Position numbers and translations under genes: made by a program. From Planctomycetales bacterium (lineage in GTDB: Bacteria; Planctomycetota; Planctomycetia; Planctomycetales; Planctomycetaceae): DNA of 64,000 bases. The stretch is from assembly GCA_026400835.1 (NCBI GenBank), contig JAPLOA010000034.1, forward strand, positions 62,001 to 126,000, written 5' to 3'. Shown piece by piece: positions 13,274 through 63,118 of the stretch (its first letter is position 1; every line of letters begins with the position of its first letter). The notes beneath the pieces are model-generated. The model did not search any database and was not told the DNA's origin. It saw only the letters and a list, made by a program, of their open reading frames with translations.

Positions 13274-14179
13274 TTAGCGAACTCGAGGACTTAAAACCTC
13301 AGCCGCCTCAGATGTTTTGCCCTTTTCACCAGTTTCACGAACGCGAGCTTCCGCCGCGACGAAGATGTTCTGGGCCATCATGATGTTCGCGGGCTTAAAG
13401 AAATAGTCGCGTCCGCCACCAATGGAGCGAGTACTCTCGTTCGCCAAATCCTGCCAGCTCATGTTGTCGGTCCGAGTCCAGATCGCTGCCTGAGCAGAAT
13501 GCTGCTCAACTCGACCTGACCCTACCATACGAATCAATTCTGCCAGCACGGGATCCTGTGTGTAATCAGCAACCCGCACCAACTTGTATTCAACTCGGGG
13601 ACTTGGATCCGCTTTGCCATGATTGAGGCACGCACCGACATAGGGAACCTTGACGGACTTTTCAGGTGGCACCGAGAAGAAACCACCTCCTCCTCCGCCC
13701 ATACCGCCCATACCGCCGCCCATACCGCCCATGCCACCTTGCTGGCCACCACCGCCGAATCCTCCTCCTTGAGCTTGGTTCTGACCACCGCCCTGCTGCC
13801 CGCCCATACCACCCATACCGCCACCCATGCCGCCCATACCTCCCATGCCACCCATGCCGCCCAGCTGTTTGAGAACTGGCACTGCGACGAATGAGTCAGG
13901 TAACTCGACAGTCAATGGCTGATCAGAGTTATTGGAAACAATCACGAAACCGCCAGTCGCATCTTTTGCGATGACTTTCGTCTGGACGCGACCGTCTTCC
14001 ATTCCCTCAAACAATCCGACTCGTTCTGCCGTCGGATCAAACTTAGGGTTGGTCAGGACTGGTTTGCGAGTTTCAGTGCGTTTTGATCCGGCGAAGCTCT
14101 CCGCCGATACGGTCAGGAAGAAGCCAAGAATTCCCGTGGCAAGTAATGCCTGGAAGACCAGGGATCGGCTAAAAATCAT
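13274..14179 (-). CDS. Secreted Gly-Gly-Met-rich planctomycete protein
   Basis: A 301-residue protein with an N-terminal signal peptide (MIFSRSLVFQALLATGILGF). Residues about 30-105 form a small domain (GFVIVSNNSDQPLTVELPDS). Residues about 106-168 are low complexity made of GGMG units interrupted by QQGGGQNQAQ. The C-terminal part begins with FFSVPPEKSVKVPYVGACLN and looks folded. A GGAG 7 bases before the ATG supports the start, and a strong terminator follows, so it is a single-gene unit. Proteins with this layout are common in planctomycetes but have no assigned function; an envelope or matrix role is a guess. Confidence 0.75.
   Translation of the reverse strand: MIFSRSLVFQALLATGILGFFLTVSAESFAGSKRTETRKPVLTNPKFDPTAERVGLFEGMEDGRVQTKVIAKDATGGFVIVSNNSDQPLTVELPDSFVAVPVLKQLGGMGGMGGMGGMGGGMGGMGGQQGGGQNQAQGGGFGGGGQQGGMGGMGGGMGGMGGGGGGFFSVPPEKSVKVPYVGACLNHGKADPSPRVEYKLVRVADYTQDPVLAELIRMVGSGRVEQHSAQAAIWTRTDNMSWQDLANESTRSIGGGRDYFFKPANIMMAQNIFVAAEARVRETGEKGKTSEAAEVLSPRVR
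13675..13862. repeat. GGMG-encoding low-complexity repeat
   Basis: Degenerate 9- and 12-base units encoding GGM/GGMG in two blocks (13699-13740 and 13799-13862), separated by a Gln/Gly-rich stretch. It could vary in copy number by slippage. Confidence 0.8.
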
Positions 14180-14450: not shown

Positions 14451-16232
14451 TCAGAACAAACCGCCTATCGTCTGCAGGACAGCAGATGGAGTCGCCGTCG
14501 AACCCGGCTGTGTCCACAACCACATCGTTCTGATCAATTCAATGCCGATAACTGCGCAGAACACTGATAGCAGCGTCGTAAAGCCAATCAGTGATTTGAG
14601 TCCAACACCCCAGTCCACATCAGCCCGGGCGCCAGCACGAGCAGGAGCCTGGAATCCACCTGCCTGACTTTGACCTTCTTCGAAATCTTCGTCGTCAAAG
14701 TCTTCGGCGTCATGCACTCCCTCATTTTCATCGTCGCTGTAGTCGTCATCCAGCCCGCCGTCGTCGTCGAAGCTGTCTTCCAGATCGTCTTCAATTTCGT
14801 CTTTGACCGGAGCACTCTTCTTTGCCGCGGGCTTCGCTGTCGCACCAGATTTTACCGGGGCTGCTGTCTTCGCTGTCGGCGTTGGCACAACCACTGTCTT
14901 TGAGGCATCGTCCTCATCGTCTTCGAACGTGAGCACACTGGTGTTCGTGCCGACATCGTCATCATCATCATCGAGACCAGCGAGTTCAAATTCGCTGTCC
15001 TTGCCATAGTTCTGGGCAGGCATGTCGAACTGCGTTGTCATCGCATTCGAATCCGACAGAGCGGCTTTCGAGCCCGGAATCGCCTGCATTGGCATCGTGC
15101 GACCCATATCGTCGGGCTGCATCGAAATGCCGCTGTCATCGTCGTATTCCAGCGAAATTCCACTGTCGCCGGCGTCCAGCGAAATACCGCTGTCGTCGCT
15201 CAGATCGACTCCACTGTCGAAGCTTTCCAGACTAATTCCGCTGTCGTCGCCGAGCTTCGCACCGCTGTCAAAGCTCTCAAGGCTGATGCCACTGTCATCC
15301 GCTTCCAGACTGATGCCACTGTCCATCTCCAGTGAAATGCCGCTCTCGTCAGCGTCGAGACCAATTCCGCTGCCGATACCCTGAGTTCGAATTCCGGATC
15401 CGCTGGGAATCAACTTCAGGTCACTATCATCAGGAATCGGCGGAAGAAGGATGGTCCTGTTATTGGTGCTGCCGGGCGAATCCGCAAGGCGGATATCACT
15501 GTCAGTCCGATCGAGACCGGCGGAAAGCTTTACGTCACTGTCACTGTCTTCAACCAGAAGATCATCGCCACCCATCAGCTTCACGTCGCTGTCAGAGTCG
15601 GACCCGGTAAACGTCATTTCGCCGGTGTTGTCGACGACTTCCTCGGACAAACGCACATCGCTGTCTGAATCTGAAAAGTTCAGTTCCGACTCATCAGCCA
15701 ACAAAACATCACCGTCTGAATCATTAAGGCTGGCGGTACTGGAGAGATCGATCTCCGCCTCAGTCCCTGCTCCAACCAGTTTCACGTCGCTGTCGGAATC
15801 AGAGATCTTCGCATCCCCGTCCCAGCCACTGAATTCAAGGACCTCTTCGGGACCAGATTCTAATCGAGGACCGGAATCCCCGGACAGTCGCACATCACTT
15901 CCAGAATTCGCCAGCTCTTTGGCGTCACTGTCATCCTCAAACATCGACTCGTCAAAGAACAGCCGTACATCGCTGTCTGAAGATGACAAATCCTCGAAAT
16001 CCGGTTCTTGCAGCACCGAAGACGATGACTCCCCCGTAATAATTGGAAAGTCAGGCGATGAATCCGTTTGCCGTGTTCGCAGGAACTCTTCGATGTCCTG
16101 TTCGCGAAACTTCCAGCTTCCGCGATCGGCAAAGCCACGGATATCGCCCTGTTCACGGAAACGCTTCAACTGATCCGCGCTCATTCCGAGTTGGATGGCT
16201 GCTTCTTCAAGACTTAGGTATTTCTTCGCCAT
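14451..16232 (-). CDS. Excisionase/MerR-type HTH protein with acidic SDSDVKL/DSGISL repeats and C-terminal membrane segment
   Basis: A 593-residue protein. Residues 1-57 form an excisionase-type winged helix (MAKKYLSLEEAAIQLGMSAD, then RGFADRGSWKFREQDIEEFL). Residues about 85-370 hold two families of acidic repeats: nine SDSDVKL-like units and then nine DSGISLE-like units, both sharing a DS(D/G)(V/I)xL core. An alanine/proline/lysine stretch and a very acidic segment follow. One hydrophobic helix (GLKSLIGFTTLLSVFCAVIG) lies near residue 550, leaving a short C-terminal tail. The start at 16232 is preferred over 16241 because MAKKYLSLEEA is the natural domain start. The layout suggests a DNA-binding or partner-binding head tethered to a membrane by an acidic stalk. 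Target and function are unknown. Confidence 0.8.
   Translation of the reverse strand: MAKKYLSLEEAAIQLGMSADQLKRFREQGDIRGFADRGSWKFREQDIEEFLRTRQTDSSPDFPIITGESSSSVLQEPDFEDLSSSDSDVRLFFDESMFEDDSDAKELANSGSDVRLSGDSGPRLESGPEEVLEFSGWDGDAKISDSDSDVKLVGAGTEAEIDLSSTASLNDSDGDVLLADESELNFSDSDSDVRLSEEVVDNTGEMTFTGSDSDSDVKLMGGDDLLVEDSDSDVKLSAGLDRTDSDIRLADSPGSTNNRTILLPPIPDDSDLKLIPSGSGIRTQGIGSGIGLDADESGISLEMDSGISLEADDSGISLESFDSGAKLGDDSGISLESFDSGVDLSDDSGISLDAGDSGISLEYDDDSGISMQPDDMGRTMPMQAIPGSKAALSDSNAMTTQFDMPAQNYGKDSEFELAGLDDDDDDVGTNTSVLTFEDDEDDASKTVVVPTPTAKTAAPVKSGATAKPAAKKSAPVKDEIEDDLEDSFDDDGGLDDDYSDDENEGVHDAEDFDDEDFEEGQSQAGGFQAPARAGARADVDWGVGLKSLIGFTTLLSVFCAVIGIELIRTMWLWTQPGSTATPSAVLQTIGGLF
15125..15980. repeat. 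Coding repeat array of SDSDV and DSGIS units
   Basis: Short degenerate repeats in the HTH gene. Reading from the gene start, the SDSDVKL-type units occupy roughly 15980-15420 and the denser DSGISLE-type units 15360-15125, spaced as little as 24-30 bases apart. Confidence 0.85.
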
Positions 16233-17726
16233 TTCTCGCATCTTTCCCGGTGGGGGATTGTCTCAGGATCGACTTCGGAACACGATAACAACTGTTCCGA
16301 AACAACAGTACCAGACCGCTCTTGTCTACGGTCTTCCTGACCTGACTACAATATCCTGCGCAGTTTGTCCCAACAGTCAAATTCTAAAACCCCGTGTTGT
16401 TGATGCAAGTTCTTTGTTGAGAACTGTCAACGAGTTAGGAAGGTTATGCGGGCAACACATGAATTTTTCAGAATTGACGGTTGGACGTTGCAATCTGCGT
16501 CTCTGACAAAGTCCGGAAAATCGCCCCGAGTCGACGACTATCGTCTCCCGAACTGAGCAGAATCGCTCTCCGGAAACCTCAACACGCGCCCAATAGTGCC
16601 CAGAAATTATCGGACGGAGTTTGATCGCACCGTCCTGTGGCTCCCCTCAGTTCCTCCTTTTTTGAGTTTGCAGTATCCTGGCTCTGGCCGCAGCTTTGAG
16701 CCTCAACCTCTAATTGTCTCTAAACCCGATTCGACGACAATTCCGCTCAGACTTCAGGAAAACCACCGGTTGAGACTTCAACCACAGACTTCTGTCTTTG
16801 GATCAATGTCCAGCCGGTGCATTCGTCATCGCAGACCCCCTGGCTTCCCGATCGGCACGCATGACCAGGGATTAGCCCTTCTATGAGGGGCCTATAGTCA
16901 GACGCCAGAGTTAAGGCCAAACAAAGAACCACCCCACGTATGCTTTCGACTGAAGCATTGTAAAAAGTCTACGAACCTTTTGAGGCCACTCCGAAACCCG
17001 CAACTCATTAGTCGCTGTCGAGTTCCAGACACCTTTTTCAGAAGCTTCCTCCGCGGCTTTGCGTTCGATTCTGCTTCGGTCTGCAACACGATGCGACCGA
17101 GCTCAACTCAGCAGCCTCCTGATTTAATTCTCACCCTCTGCGTCAGTGACGGATGTTTTTGAAAACGCGGCGACCCTTATCCTTCACTGACATGTCGGGT
17201 TGGGAAAAGCGATTAAATCGGAGGCTTTTTCGGCGTCGTGCGAAGACCAAAACAGCTCCCGACTCCCGGTGACGATTCTCCCGCGGTCCTCCGCCTGCAG
17301 CTCTCCGTTGCACGGAAACACAGTGATCGCCTCGCGGGCATCATTGCTGACAGTCACACGGGAAAGCTGGCCGGCAGCCACCATTACAAGCGTCACGACA
17401 ACAAAATCAACAACTCGCCGGGGTACACCAAAAGACTTCCCTGCGGCGCCACCCTTTTTAATTAACTCAGCTCCGTTAACTCAGCTCCGTGCCTGTGTGG
17501 ACAACATTCCTGAGCTTGCCACCTGACACGCAGAAAATCGTCCATCAGAAATCTTGACTGAGACAGTGTTCGGATTTTGACTGTCGTGCCTGGCCATTGG
17601 AATTCAACAATCAGGCGGACCTTTGCGCTTTGACAGTCACGGGGAAACCAACAGTGACGACCGGCCGATTCTGCGCGTCTCTGCCTGAATGCAGCGACAA
17701 CCGCCGACGATAAAGGGAGTGCTACA
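16233..17726. other. Long gene-poor region
   Basis: Nearly 1.5 kb between the divergent HTH gene and the sigma-factor gene. Several open frames of 60-108 codons exist on both strands but overlap one another and lack motifs or ribosome sites. A short hairpin-like stretch is visible near 16875-16892. I could not match any known structured RNA (RNase P, tmRNA, SRP, 6S) by eye. It must hold the promoters of both flanking genes; an unrecognised ncRNA is possible. Confidence 0.4.
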
Positions 17727-18611
17727 TTGAACTCAGGCAGCTCCCTTCTCAGGCTGACACAAATGACTCAGACGACTCGCAAGAAGCGTATCACTTCTTC
17801 ACGATTGCAGACGCCGCTGGAAACTTATCTCCGCGAAATCAACGAAACCGCTCTGCTGACCGCGAATGATGAAAAAGAGTTGTCAAACCGAATCTCCAAC
17901 GGAGATGGTGCCGCTCGCGATCGTATGGTGCGAGCCAATCTGCGGCTCGTTGTGAATATTGCCCGCGGCTACAGCGGCAAAGGGCTTCCTCTGCAGGACC
18001 TGATTGAAGAAGGCAATCTGGGACTGCTGCGCGCCGTCGAAGGCTTCGACCCGAATATGAATACCCGATTCAGTACCTATGCCAGCTACTGGATTAAACA
18101 GTCAATCAAGCGTGCCCTGGTGAATTCCGCCAAGACGATTCGTATCCCGGCTTACATGGTCGAATTGCTGTCGAAATGGCGTCGAGCGTCCGCGAAACTG
18201 GCCGAAGAACTGAATGCGACCCCGACGGCCGAGGATATTGCCAAAGAACTGGGGATCCCGAAAAAGAAGCTGCGAATTGTCAAGAAGGCCATCACCCTGT
18301 ACAACGCCACTCCGCAGGCGGAACAGGAAGACAGCGGCATGACTCTGGGAGATATCGTCCCGGATGAACGGATGCGAGGCCCCGAGGACGAACTGATCAA
18401 CTCGGACAACCTGACTCATGTCTCCCGCCTGCTGGATGAAATGGACCCCCGCGAAGCGACGATTCTGCGGATGCGATTTGGTCTGGATGACAGTGAGCCT
18501 CAGACGCTGAAGGAAATCGGCGAATCACTCGGACTGACTCGGGAACGAGTTCGTCAGATTGAAAGTGAAGCTCTTCGCAGACTCTATCGAAGCCTTAGCG
18601 GCGAAAACTAA
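17727..18611 (+). CDS. RNA polymerase sigma factor, sigma-70 (RpoD/SigA-like)
   Basis: A 294-residue primary-like sigma factor lacking a long region 1.1. Region 1.2 is TPLETYLREINETALLTAND. Region 2 contains NLRLVVNIARGYSGKGLPLQ and FSTYASYWIKQSIKRAL. Region 3 contains TPTAEDIAKELGIPKKKL. Region 4.2 is SLGLTRERVRQIESEALRRL. The TTG start at 17727 has a GGGAG 8 bases upstream; an ATG 12 codons later (17763) has no good ribosome site. The length fits the shorter group 1/2 sigma factors, several of which occur in planctomycetes, so whether it is the housekeeping factor cannot be told here. It is a single-gene unit ended by a hairpin. Confidence 0.92.
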   Translation: MNSGSSLLRLTQMTQTTRKKRITSSRLQTPLETYLREINETALLTANDEKELSNRISNGDGAARDRMVRANLRLVVNIARGYSGKGLPLQDLIEEGNLGLLRAVEGFDPNMNTRFSTYASYWIKQSIKRALVNSAKTIRIPAYMVELLSKWRRASAKLAEELNATPTAEDIAKELGIPKKKLRIVKKAITLYNATPQAEQEDSGMTLGDIVPDERMRGPEDELINSDNLTHVSRLLDEMDPREATILRMRFGLDDSEPQTLKEIGESLGLTRERVRQIESEALRRLYRSLSGEN

Positions 18612-30281: not shown

Positions 30282-31772
30282 ATGCGTTTGATTCTTTCAT
30301 TGGCACTTGCTGTTACTATGACAGCATCTGCTCAGGCGGGTGGTTGCTTCGGTAAGAAGTCCAGCCGTTGTTGTTCAGCACCTTGTGCTACCAGCTGCAG
30401 CCCATGTGGTGCCAGCTCTTGTGGTTCAAGCTGCGGTGATTCAGGTGGCGGCGCTCCAGCAGCGTGCGGAACATGGGAAGAGGTTCAGAAGACTGTTCTG
30501 GTTCCAACCACTGTTACTGAAACCCGCAAGGTTACTGTAATGGTTCCTGTAACTCAGGAACACGTTGGCACTCGCAATGTCGTCAAGACAGAGTGGGCTG
30601 ACGAAGTTCAGAAGTACACAGTCATGGTTCCGGAAACTGTTGAGCACACTGGCACTCGCCACGTCTGTAAGACAGAGTGGGCTGACGAAGTTCAGAAGTA
30701 CACAGTCATGGTTCCGGAAACTGTTGAACACACTGGCACTCGCCACGTCTGCAAGACAGAGTGGGTTGACCAGGTTCAGAAGTACACAGTCATGGTTCCG
30801 GAAACTGTTGAACACACAGCAACTCGCAATGTCTGCAAGACAGAGTGGGCTGAAGAAGTTCAGAAGTACACTGTTCTGGTGCCTGAAACCGTTCAGCACT
30901 CTGGCACTCGTACCGTCTGCAAGACCGTCCCAGTCCAGAAGACTCGCAAGGTTTGCCAGGACCAGGGTCACTGGGAAGAGCGAGTTGTTGAATCGCCCGG
31001 TAATGGCTGTGGTTCAGCTTCAGGTTGCGGCGGTTGCGCTTCAGCTCCAGCTTGCGGTGGTTGTGCTCAGGCTTCAAGCTGCTGCGGTGCAGTTGCTTCT
31101 GCCTGTGGCGGTTGCGGTGTAGCCAGCGCTTGCGGTGCTGTTGCTGCAAGCTGCAACGGTGGCACACAGACCGTGAAGGTCTGGGTTGCTAACATGGTTG
31201 AAACAGAAGTTGCGTATACCTGCTACGAACAGCAGAAGGTTGAAGAGCCTTACACATACACAACAACTGTCTGCAAGCCAGTTGAAAAGGAACGTACTGT
31301 AAAGGTCGCTAAGCACGTAACTGTTCCAGAAGAGTACAAGTACACAACAACTGTCTGCAAGGCCGTTGAGCAGGAACGCACAGTGAAGGTCTGCAAGCAG
31401 ATCACCGTTCCAGAAGAGTACAAGTACACAACAACTGTCTGCAAGGCCGTTGAAAAAGAGCGAACTGTAAAGGTTGCTAAGAACGTTACAGTTCCAGAAG
31501 AGTACAAGTACACGACAACTGTCTGCAAGGCCGTTGAAAAAGAGCGAACTGTAAAGGTTGCTAAGAACGTTACAGTTCCAGAAGAGTACAAGTACACGAC
31601 AACCGTGTGCCAGCCACAGGAAAAGGAAGTCCAGGTTCAGGTTTGCAAGATGGTTGAGCAGGTTGTAACCCACAAGGTTTACCACCCAGCAGCTCCAGCT
31701 TGCAGCAGTGCTCCGGCAACAGCTTGCGGCGGTTGCGCTCCAGCAGCTCCAGCTTGTGGTTCTTGCCACTAA
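30282..31772 (+). CDS. Cysteine-rich 'YTV'-type repeat protein, probable cell-wall protein
   Basis: A 496-residue secreted protein with signal peptide MRLILSLALAVTMTASAQAG and a GGGAGGAG about 10 bases before the ATG. It has a mirror-like layout. A Cys-rich head (residues 21-60) is followed by five 28-residue units of the type VPETVEHTGTRHVCKTEW plus QKYTVM. A central Cys/Gly/Ala-rich segment (about 240-288) comes next, then five units of the type EYKYTTTVCKAVEKERTVKV, and a Cys-rich tail. Most units contain one cysteine, suggesting disulfide cross-linking. I recall cell-wall proteins with a YTV repeat reported from Rhodopirellula; this protein fits that description. It has its own leader and a strong terminator and is likely abundant. 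Confidence 0.85.
   Translation: MRLILSLALAVTMTASAQAGGCFGKKSSRCCSAPCATSCSPCGASSCGSSCGDSGGGAPAACGTWEEVQKTVLVPTTVTETRKVTVMVPVTQEHVGTRNVVKTEWADEVQKYTVMVPETVEHTGTRHVCKTEWADEVQKYTVMVPETVEHTGTRHVCKTEWVDQVQKYTVMVPETVEHTATRNVCKTEWAEEVQKYTVLVPETVQHSGTRTVCKTVPVQKTRKVCQDQGHWEERVVESPGNGCGSASGCGGCASAPACGGCAQASSCCGAVASACGGCGVASACGAVAASCNGGTQTVKVWVANMVETEVAYTCYEQQKVEEPYTYTTTVCKPVEKERTVKVAKHVTVPEEYKYTTTVCKAVEQERTVKVCKQITVPEEYKYTTTVCKAVEKERTVKVAKNVTVPEEYKYTTTVCKAVEKERTVKVAKNVTVPEEYKYTTTVCQPQEKEVQVQVCKMVEQVVTHKVYHPAAPACSSAPATACGGCAPAAPACGSCH
30540..30959. repeat. Five 84-base coding repeats (first array)
   Basis: Units begin at 30540, 30624, 30708, 30792 and 30876. The second and third are nearly identical at the DNA level, so recent duplication or gene conversion is likely. 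Confidence 0.9.
31242..31660. repeat. Five 84/87-base coding repeats (second array)
   Basis: The first unit is 87 bases and the others 84. The third and fourth units are almost identical at the DNA level over their whole length. Confidence 0.9.
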
Positions 31773-61039: not shown

Positions 61040-63118
61040 ATGTCCGTCAGTGAAATCTCAGAAAACATGAACTCTGAAGAACTTGAAATCGAAACTTTGG
61101 TTGAATGTGAAGACATGGCTGAAGCAGAAGAAACGATCATTGAAGAAGTAGAAGTGATGGTCCAGCCGGAGCCCGAGAATGGGTTTCGCAAGCTGGGTCT
61201 GTGCGCACCATTGATGGCCGCGATCGAAGCGTCCGGTTACACCAATCCCACGCCGATTCAGGAGCAGACGATTAAGCTGCTGCTGGAAGGTCGTGATATG
61301 GTCGGACAGGCTCAGACTGGTTCCGGGAAAACCGGAGCCTTCGCGTTGCCGATGCTGCAGCGGATTGAACTTGAACTGAAGCAGCCTCAGGTGCTTGTGC
61401 TCGTACCGACGCGAGAACTTGCGATTCAGGTCGCGGCTGCGTTCGAAAAGTACGCGGCAAAGATGAGTCAGTTGCGAGTCGTCGCGATCTACGGTGGTGC
61501 CGCCTATCAGCCTCAACTTTCACAACTGAAGCGTGGCGTGCATGTTGTCGTGGGAACTCCGGGGCGAGTCATGGATCACATGAATCGCGGCTCGCTGAAC
61601 CTCGGTCACCTGAAGTGTCTGGTTCTGGACGAAGCCGATGAAATGCTCCGCATGGGTTTTGCGGAAAGCGTGGAATGGGTGCTGACTCAGCTTCCGGAAA
61701 AACGCCAGATCGCGCTGTTCTCCGCGACAATGCCGGAACCAATTCGACGGATTGCTCAGCAGCATCTGAAGAATCCTGCTGAGGTCACGATTCGTCAGAA
61801 GACCGCAACCGCCGACACGATTCGTCAGCGTTTTGTTGTCGTCGGTCAGTATCAGAAGGAAGCCGCTCTGGGCCGAGTTCTCGAAGCAGAACCGATCGAT
61901 GGCGTGATCATTTTTGTCAAACTGAAGTCAACAACGGAACCACTGTGTGAGTTCCTGAGTTCTCGCGGTTACCGAGCAGCCGCCCTGAACGGCGACATCG
62001 CTCAGGCCCAGCGCGAACGAATTATTGAACACTTCAAGGCTGGCAAGCTGGATATCGTGGTCGCCACGGACGTGGCGGCTCGAGGCCTGGACGTACAACG
62101 TATCAGCCACGTGATCAACTACGATCTGCCGGGTGACAGCGAAGCTTATGTGCATCGCATCGGTCGAACAGGCCGAGCTGGTCGCAGCGGTGAAGCGATT
62201 CTGTTCATTCACCCAAAGGCTCAGCGGATGCTGAAAAGCCTTGAGTATGCGACTCGACAGAAGATCGAACCAATGGATCTGCCGACCAATCGTCAGATCA
62301 ACAAGAATCGTGTCTCACGATTCCATGGCCAGATTGTCGAGAACATGTCTCATCCTCTCGCGGATGCGATGGGTTCTATCGTCGATCAGTTTCGCCGTGA
62401 GAATCCCGAGATGCCGGTCGAGAAGATCATCGGCGCTCTGGCCATCATGGCCAACAGTGGTAACCCGCTGTTGCTGAAGGAAGAACTGAAGCAGGAAACT
62501 TTCTTTGAACCTCGTCGCCGTGACGAACGCGGATCACGTGATTCTCGCGGACCGCGAGATGATGGGTTCCGTGGTCAACGCCGAGATAGTTTTTCGAGCA
62601 ACGGTCCACGCTATGAACGTGCTCCGGGTGATCGTGGATTCCGAAACGATCAGGGGCCAGGCGATAACTTCTCTCGCCCGGAACGCAGCTTTCGTGACGA
62701 CCGAGGACCTCGGGAAGATCGTGGGCCGCGTGAAGATCGTGGACCTCGGGCTCCTCGCCAGGGCGACGAGAATATGGAAACCTTCCGCATCGAAGTCGGC
62801 CATATGCATCAGGTGAAGCCTGGCAATATCGTCGGCGCCATTGCGAATGAAGCCGGGATCGATAGTGCTCAGATTGGACGCATTGAAATCTTTGAAGACT
62901 TCAGCACCGTGGATTTGCCTCAGGGCATGCCGCAGGAAGTCTTCTTTGCTCTGCAGAAGGTCTGGGTTTCTGGTCGTCAGTTGAAGATCGCAAAAGCAGA
63001 CGCAGCACGCTCTGGTGGATCGTCTTCAGGCGGACCATCATCTGGCCGACGCCCTGATCGACCATTCCGCCCGAACCGTCCGGCTCGCAAGCCAGGCGGT
63101 CGAGGAATGCGATCCTAA
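61040..63118 (+). CDS. DEAD-box RNA helicase 2 with DbpA-type RNA-binding domain (DeaD/CsdA-like)
   Basis: A 692-residue helicase. An acidic leader (MSVSEISENMNSEELEIETL) precedes the core: NPTPIQEQT, AQTGSGKTGAFALP, LVLDEADEMLRMGF, SATM and HRIGRTGRAGRSG. After a helical segment and an Arg/Asp/Gly repeat stretch (DDRGPREDRGPREDRGPRAP), residues about 575-655 form a DbpA-like RNA-recognition fold (FRIEVGHMHQVKPGNIVGAI, IGRIEIFEDFSTVDLP). This matches the DeaD/CsdA ribosome-assembly and cold-shock helicases. A strong hairpin terminator follows. Confidence 0.93.
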   Translation: MSVSEISENMNSEELEIETLVECEDMAEAEETIIEEVEVMVQPEPENGFRKLGLCAPLMAAIEASGYTNPTPIQEQTIKLLLEGRDMVGQAQTGSGKTGAFALPMLQRIELELKQPQVLVLVPTRELAIQVAAAFEKYAAKMSQLRVVAIYGGAAYQPQLSQLKRGVHVVVGTPGRVMDHMNRGSLNLGHLKCLVLDEADEMLRMGFAESVEWVLTQLPEKRQIALFSATMPEPIRRIAQQHLKNPAEVTIRQKTATADTIRQRFVVVGQYQKEAALGRVLEAEPIDGVIIFVKLKSTTEPLCEFLSSRGYRAAALNGDIAQAQRERIIEHFKAGKLDIVVATDVAARGLDVQRISHVINYDLPGDSEAYVHRIGRTGRAGRSGEAILFIHPKAQRMLKSLEYATRQKIEPMDLPTNRQINKNRVSRFHGQIVENMSHPLADAMGSIVDQFRRENPEMPVEKIIGALAIMANSGNPLLLKEELKQETFFEPRRRDERGSRDSRGPRDDGFRGQRRDSFSSNGPRYERAPGDRGFRNDQGPGDNFSRPERSFRDDRGPREDRGPREDRGPRAPRQGDENMETFRIEVGHMHQVKPGNIVGAIANEAGIDSAQIGRIEIFEDFSTVDLPQGMPQEVFFALQKVWVSGRQLKIAKADAARSGGSSSGGPSSGRRPDRPFRPNRPARKPGGRGMRS

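Follow-up and report, generated by a model that had tools for sequence, protein, structure and literature searches.

What might a protein do that begins with a winged helix-turn-helix (HTH), continues as a long acidic array of near-identical motifs and ends in a single membrane helix? The question is raised by a gene in the window studied here, the 64,000 nucleotides at positions 62,001 to 126,000 of contig JAPLOA010000034.1 of a Planctomycetales bacterium (GCA_026400835.1). The gene lies at 14451-16232 and encodes 593 residues. A sequence-only reading, whose coordinates and counts are correct and which left the strand, minus, unstated, had described an HTH head, about 18 repeats, an acidic linker and a C-terminal membrane helix, and had suggested that the whole could tether DNA to a membrane. 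Our sequence analysis confirms that layout, with the following parts:

16065..16232 (-), residues 1-56: winged HTH head of the HTH_17, excisionase or MerR-type fold, with a mostly charge-reversed recognition helix (Pfam, AlphaFold2, fold matches, position statistics)
15408..15980 (-), residues 85-275: motif zone 1, irregularly spaced SDSDV[RK]L-type motifs (motif pattern, slow evolution, predicted unstructured)
15117..15377 (-), residues 286-372: motif zone 2, DSGISLE-type motifs each 8-10 residues (motif pattern, slow evolution, predicted unstructured)
14607..15116 (-), residues 373-542: acidic disordered linker (alignment of relatives, AlphaFold2)
14514..14606 (-), residues 543-573: membrane helix, probably N-in/C-out by the positive-inside rule (hydropathy, charge distribution, AlphaFold2, relatives)
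14451..14513 (-), residues 574-593: short uncharged C-terminal tail, with the stop codon (sequence)

The reading frame is open over 14451..16241 (-), and the start at 16232 (MAKKYL) is backed by orthologues; a start at an ATG three codons upstream, giving 596 residues, is possible because the close relative L004 has CTG at the matching codon. In the full-length AlphaFold2 model residues 57-542 have no secondary structure and pLDDT is below 50 in 440 of the 593 residues. The alignment of relatives picks out two conserved stretches in the linker, SEFEL and TSVLTF.

The gene has itself as the single match in its own genome, and relatives occur in 49 of the 59 genomes searched, a figure that includes the window's own and each of the 17 others of its genus. 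When named genomes were searched, 110 relatives came up, every title bearing a planctomycete name but one ('bacterium'), and the best 80 of these 110 form the named loci of the window's taxonomic family analysed below. At greater distance, a profile built from 17 relatives has matches in 253 of 297 genomes of the class and in 104 of 199 of the phylum, 10 of the latter belonging to the same family and most of the others being covered in the head region only. Twenty regions from the class and 20 from the phylum were then picked by choice, mostly from the top of the match lists; the head is present in 19 of the former (L171 has none) and in all of the latter. Head, acidic middle and C-terminal helix are kept together in 76/76 complete family relatives, with net charges of -52 to -255, and in 19/19 class loci; lengths and charges of the phylum loci were left out of account, one phylum row having a mis-trimmed length (45). 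The SDSDV/DSG motifs are a class-level feature: the proteins of the 19 class loci carry 4-9 each, those of the 20 phylum loci 0-1. Judged from these comparisons, the gene belongs to an old, undescribed protein family, and among the papers listed by our literature searches no title or abstract opening describes it.

The protein has a sole hydrophobic segment, which starts 44 residues before its C-terminus (Kyte-Doolittle 2.17, against 0.55 for the next best), and AlphaFold2 models a helix at 543-573 (block pLDDT 79-91); with a single membrane helix near the C-terminus and no second membrane segment, the protein has the form of a tail-anchored one. Since the C-terminal 22 residues are uncharged and basic residues lie on the opposite side of the helix, the positive-inside rule would place the head in the cytoplasm. 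Hydropathy gives exactly one hydrophobic segment, no more than 60 residues from the end, in each of the 76 loci with a complete C-terminus among the 80 of the family, and the membrane helix proposed earlier is thus supported by sequence. All 19 class loci likewise have a segment within 60 residues of the end, L157 having a second. Among the 20 phylum loci the segment is equally close in 13 and farther in for six, two loci have two, and the one exception, L177, is partly masked and has none.

The middle of the protein is dominated by its motifs. Residues 85 to 372 hold 18 matches to the pattern S[DG][IVLA]x[LMI], where 5000 shuffles of residues 56-400 give a mean of 0.79 and a maximum of 6. In zone 1 most motifs read SDSDV[RK]L and are irregularly spaced; those of zone 2 are DSGISLE-like, at intervals of 8-10 residues. 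The joined repeats, searched against the window's genome, gave three matches at E <= 10, all within this gene, and a literature search for four motif strings found them printed in no paper. For selection, the gene was compared with five relatives in a codon alignment, with motif positions defined from the window sequence alone. In three diverged pairs (L037, L041 and L038) motif dN is 0.060, 0.047 and 0.046 against 0.239, 0.324 and 0.328 for spacers of the same zones, with identities of 92-95% and 60-67%, respectively; the comparison rests on dN because dS was saturated or not computable in much of these pairs. Motif residues thus evolve 4-7 times slower than spacers, and the repeats are therefore under selection. 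The close relatives L035 and L036 give motif dN of 0 and 0.008 against 0.024 and 0.054 for spacers. The motifs are tighter than the HTH head (dN 0.042, 0.114 and 0.145) in two of the three diverged pairs.

Within the motif, the hydrophobic V/I and L positions suggest docking sites rather than mere charge. This bears on the idea that the array is a calcium- or cation-binding acidic brush, which would account for the 140 acidic against 40 basic residues of the whole protein and for the alternating Asp/Ser. We consider it the least probable of the readings weighed here, as no strands or helices are predicted in the array and charge alone would not need the V/I and L of the slow-evolving motif. 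Calcium beta-rolls of the RTX type are built of regular nonapeptide repeats that fold as a beta-roll; such a roll seems unlikely here, as the motif spacing is irregular and AlphaFold2, at low confidence in the array, predicts no strands. An NCBIfam match of the linker to SepX/GlpR (15.9 bits against a cut-off of 160) was set aside as compositional.

The head itself is recognisable by fold. Pfam HTH_17 (PF12728) matches residues 5-54 (E 2.1e-7, 31.5 bits) above its gathering cut-off of 27, and the excisionase model TIGR01764 scores 21.2 bits, below the NCBIfam cut-off of 28.8. The AlphaFold2 model of residues 1-75, built from 51 sequences (mean pLDDT 76), shows an HTH with two wing strands, which makes it a winged HTH. 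Its best Foldseek matches are complexes with DNA, of RacA (5i44, E 5.2e-3, 20% identity), BldC and HiNmlR, none of the 687 matches reaching E <= 0.001; aligned to BldC (6ama) with VIA-align, the head gives Z 7.1 and 2.1 Å over 53 residues, a middling Z by the tool's own notes. By model and fold matches, then, the protein has the MerR-type winged HTH head that marks tethers of the RocS/RacA type. A profile search of PDB sequences with the head returned only a CAP-repeat protein and Cryptic loci regulator protein 1, neither taken as related. A viral origin of the excisionase-type head was also rejected, as none of the 75 viral-contig stretches that matched a pattern encodes a relative.

Winged HTH domains of this kind do not all read DNA. 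The Foldseek matches also include DafA (9dvi, rank 14) and CbpM (3ucs, rank 17), protein-protein complexes by title, and CbpM aligns with the head at Z 6.6 by VIA-align. CbpM binds its J-domain partner via acidic residues (PMC4063869), so that an adaptor of the CbpM/DafA sort, recruiting a J-domain co-chaperone to the membrane, has some structural appeal; we nevertheless hold it to be very improbable, given that neither protein came up when PDB sequences were searched with the head profile at E <= 5.

Whether the head is likely to read DNA can be judged from its recognition helix. The DNA contacts of BldC include Lys26, Thr27, Arg30, Trp31 and Arg47/Arg48, and replacing Arg30 by Ala abolished DNA binding (PMC5859096). 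By our own mapping through the shared helices, these correspond to residues 20, 21, 24, 25 and 40/41 of the window protein. As controls we used 30 HTH_17 domains, out of 38 matching places, from seven planctomycete genomes including the window's; they were taken at E <= 1e-8, so weaker HTH_17 matches might differ, and clustering at 80% identity reduces them to 24. An acidic residue stands at position 20 in 42/51 family, 18/19 class and 19/20 phylum members (79 of 90 relatives overall) against 1/30 controls (1/24 clusters). For position 21 the corresponding counts are 29/51, 18/19 and 18/20 against 1/30 controls (1/24 clusters), and 20 of the 30 control domains have Thr there. The Arg30 equivalent, position 24, is R or K in 41/51 family, 1/19 class and 16/20 phylum members, and in 23/30 controls (17/24 clusters). 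All 90 relatives have a hydrophobic residue at position 40, where 15 of the 30 controls have Arg, and position 41 is K or R in 51/51, 18/19 and 18/20, Lys41 being invariant in the 51 family rows. The wing carries a net charge of +2 to +3, and the mean charge of residues 1-56 is +0.5 in the family, +0.05 in the class and -2.5 in the phylum, against +4.8 in the control domains.

The acidic recognition-helix positions speak against DNA binding of the canonical kind and in favour of a winged HTH that binds protein, as in CbpM, and canonical recognition of DNA by this head looks doubtful. Residual DNA binding is possible, because the Arg30 equivalent is mostly kept in family and phylum, Lys41 is invariant and the wing is positive. 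The DNA-binding head of the sequence-only reading is therefore borne out in its fold, through weak and consistent Foldseek matches, and partly contradicted, by the refuting condition which that reading itself had set, in its DNA-facing residues: in orthologues those at positions 20 and 21 are mostly replaced by acidic ones, and the Arg30 equivalent mostly stands in family and phylum and is nearly lost in the class.

These data weigh directly on the DNA-to-membrane tether, in which the head would bind chromosomal DNA and the helix anchor it, so that the nucleoid is organised or segregated much as proposed for RocS. The parts follow the order seen in RocS, an N-terminal MerR-type winged HTH and a C-terminal membrane anchor (PMC11500499), the first-ranked fold match is RacA bound to DNA, and the kept Arg30 equivalent and positive wing speak for contact with DNA. 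Set against this are the two mostly acidic DNA-facing positions, the near absence of the Arg30 equivalent from the class, a net charge across the family that should disfavour closeness to DNA, and a middle in which no helix, hence no coiled coil, is predicted. Of the earlier proposal the membrane anchor survives and the head charges partly fail it; we regard the tether as the main rival, unlikely on balance, and rank it below a scaffold. The same charge problem besets the idea of a ToxR/CadC-like regulator that works on promoters while in the membrane or once it has been cleaved. ToxR and CadC are membrane-tethered transcription regulators, and an HTH head with a single membrane helix is what such a protein would show; here, however, about 20 residues follow the helix, with no sensor domain past the membrane, and we consider this reading improbable.

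The explanation that we place first, tentatively and at a little under even confidence, is that the protein is a membrane-anchored (tail-anchored) multivalent cytoplasmic scaffold. The single C-terminal helix would fix it in the membrane and leave its bulk in the cytoplasm. Some 18 near-identical short linear motifs (acidic-Ser-[Asp/Gly]-[Val/Ile]-x-Leu) in the long acidic disordered middle could then serve as repeated docking sites, so that many copies of one partner, or several different partners, collect at the membrane. The head, a derived MerR/excisionase fold, would most likely bind protein rather than read DNA; since the usual DNA-reading charges are largely lost, it resembles a protein-gathering hub more than a DNA tether. 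A protein-gathering scaffold also fits better than a tether with the charge pattern of the head, with a middle that is polyacidic and disordered, and with the lack of a coiled coil.

The gene neighbourhood may hint at where such a scaffold works. In the window's family no neighbour cluster occurs in more than 15 of 81 loci, an OmpA-family neighbour is found in 7/80 (66 loci having 1.2 kb of downstream sequence) and a small upstream gene in 0/80 (77 having enough flank); the family genome L200 does have an OmpA-family gene downstream of the relative. A second, diverged HTH-membrane paralogue lies in the same genome (L199, 4000-5419, minus strand), without an OmpA-family neighbour. Outside the family, 14/19 class and 16/20 phylum loci have a small protein gene upstream on the same strand, 9/19 and 9/20 have an OmpA-family gene within 1.2 kb downstream, and 9/19 and 8/20 have both. 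These counts show an arrangement rather than independent discovery, because both profiles were built partly from the loci themselves and some of the matches (L163, L164 and L175 for OmpA; L189 and L192-L194 for the small protein) are weak. Two of the OmpA-family neighbours match Pfam OmpA at 1.3e-17 and 5e-19, and by our own reading they are probably lipoproteins with a coiled coil; an OmpA-family relative (40% identity) is encoded on another contig of the window's genome.

The small proteins form a planctomycete family marked by a hydrophobic stretch at the N-terminus and by a few residues that never vary, encoded upstream of relatives outside the window's family (loci L158, L159, L160, L168, L170, L172-L174, L177, L180-L183 and L190); two of them gave no Pfam match. 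No small protein was matched in the window's genome or in eight other genomes of the family, and that search did find it in 11 of the 14 genomes covered outside, five of these 11 having supplied query sequences. Each of the 11 has a copy of the small protein gene adjoining this gene, and nine carry just one copy. In the window itself, three other genes may be recorded:

13274-14179 (-): directly downstream gene for an exported-looking protein with GGMGG runs and no Pfam match
17727-18611 (+): divergently oriented gene that, by reading alone, resembles a sigma-70-type factor
30282-31772 (+): protein of 496 residues, rich in Cys, whose 84-bp (28-residue) tandem repeats stand in two arrays
30540-30925: first of these arrays, 4.6 copies
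31257-31610: second of these arrays, 4.2 copies

Because the gene so often stands beside OmpA-family and small protein genes outside the window's family, the scaffold may work at the envelope, perhaps through a physical link. A bolder version, which we think distinctly unlikely, would be a membrane-anchored hub: its repurposed HTH head and its motif array would collect partners in the cytoplasm, with a wall-binding protein of the OmpA family lying opposite, and would so link cytoplasm and wall in growth or budding; such a protein would be a widespread, undescribed organiser in bacteria that divide without FtsZ. Planctomycetota are reported to divide without FtsZ (PMC12283558), and 108 essential proteins of unknown function in P. 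limnophila are phylum-specific (PMC10632474). A widespread family with a near-identical, slowly evolving motif array offers a clear handle for pull-down experiments. More generally, an HTH_17 annotation alone does not make a DNA-binding protein, and the recognition helix should be checked first.

Several known systems can be compared. The head scores above the curated cut-off of the HTH_17/excisionase family (PF12728) and is unlike the 30 planctomycete control domains, with their average charge of +4.8. It shares its winged HTH fold with BldC of Streptomyces (6ama), which differs in being a soluble protein of 68 residues that binds DNA through basic contacts (PMC5859096). SepH of actinobacteria offers a parallel in which an HTH motif binds a protein, FtsZ, and is followed by an unstructured C-terminal half, although its HTH belongs to another family, DUF3071 (PMC7968930). 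CbpM of Escherichia coli has a MerR-like fold without the MerR DNA-binding residues and an interface with acidic residues; it binds a J-domain and forms dimers through a coiled coil, and the cited sections mention neither a motif array nor a membrane helix (PMC4063869). RacA of Bacillus subtilis, the best Foldseek match, is alike in the fold of its head and, unlike the window protein, binds DNA, has a central coiled coil and a disordered C-terminus and reaches the pole via DivIVA (PMC11500499). RocS of Streptococcus pneumoniae, the proposed tether of the pneumococcal chromosome to the membrane, is alike in plan, with an N-terminal MerR-type winged HTH, a long middle and a C-terminal membrane anchor (PMC11500499). 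Its middle is a coiled coil, its anchor an amphipathic helix and its DNA binding has been shown (PMC11500499), whereas in the window protein the middle is a disordered array of motifs, the anchor a membrane helix and the recognition helix mostly charge-reversed.
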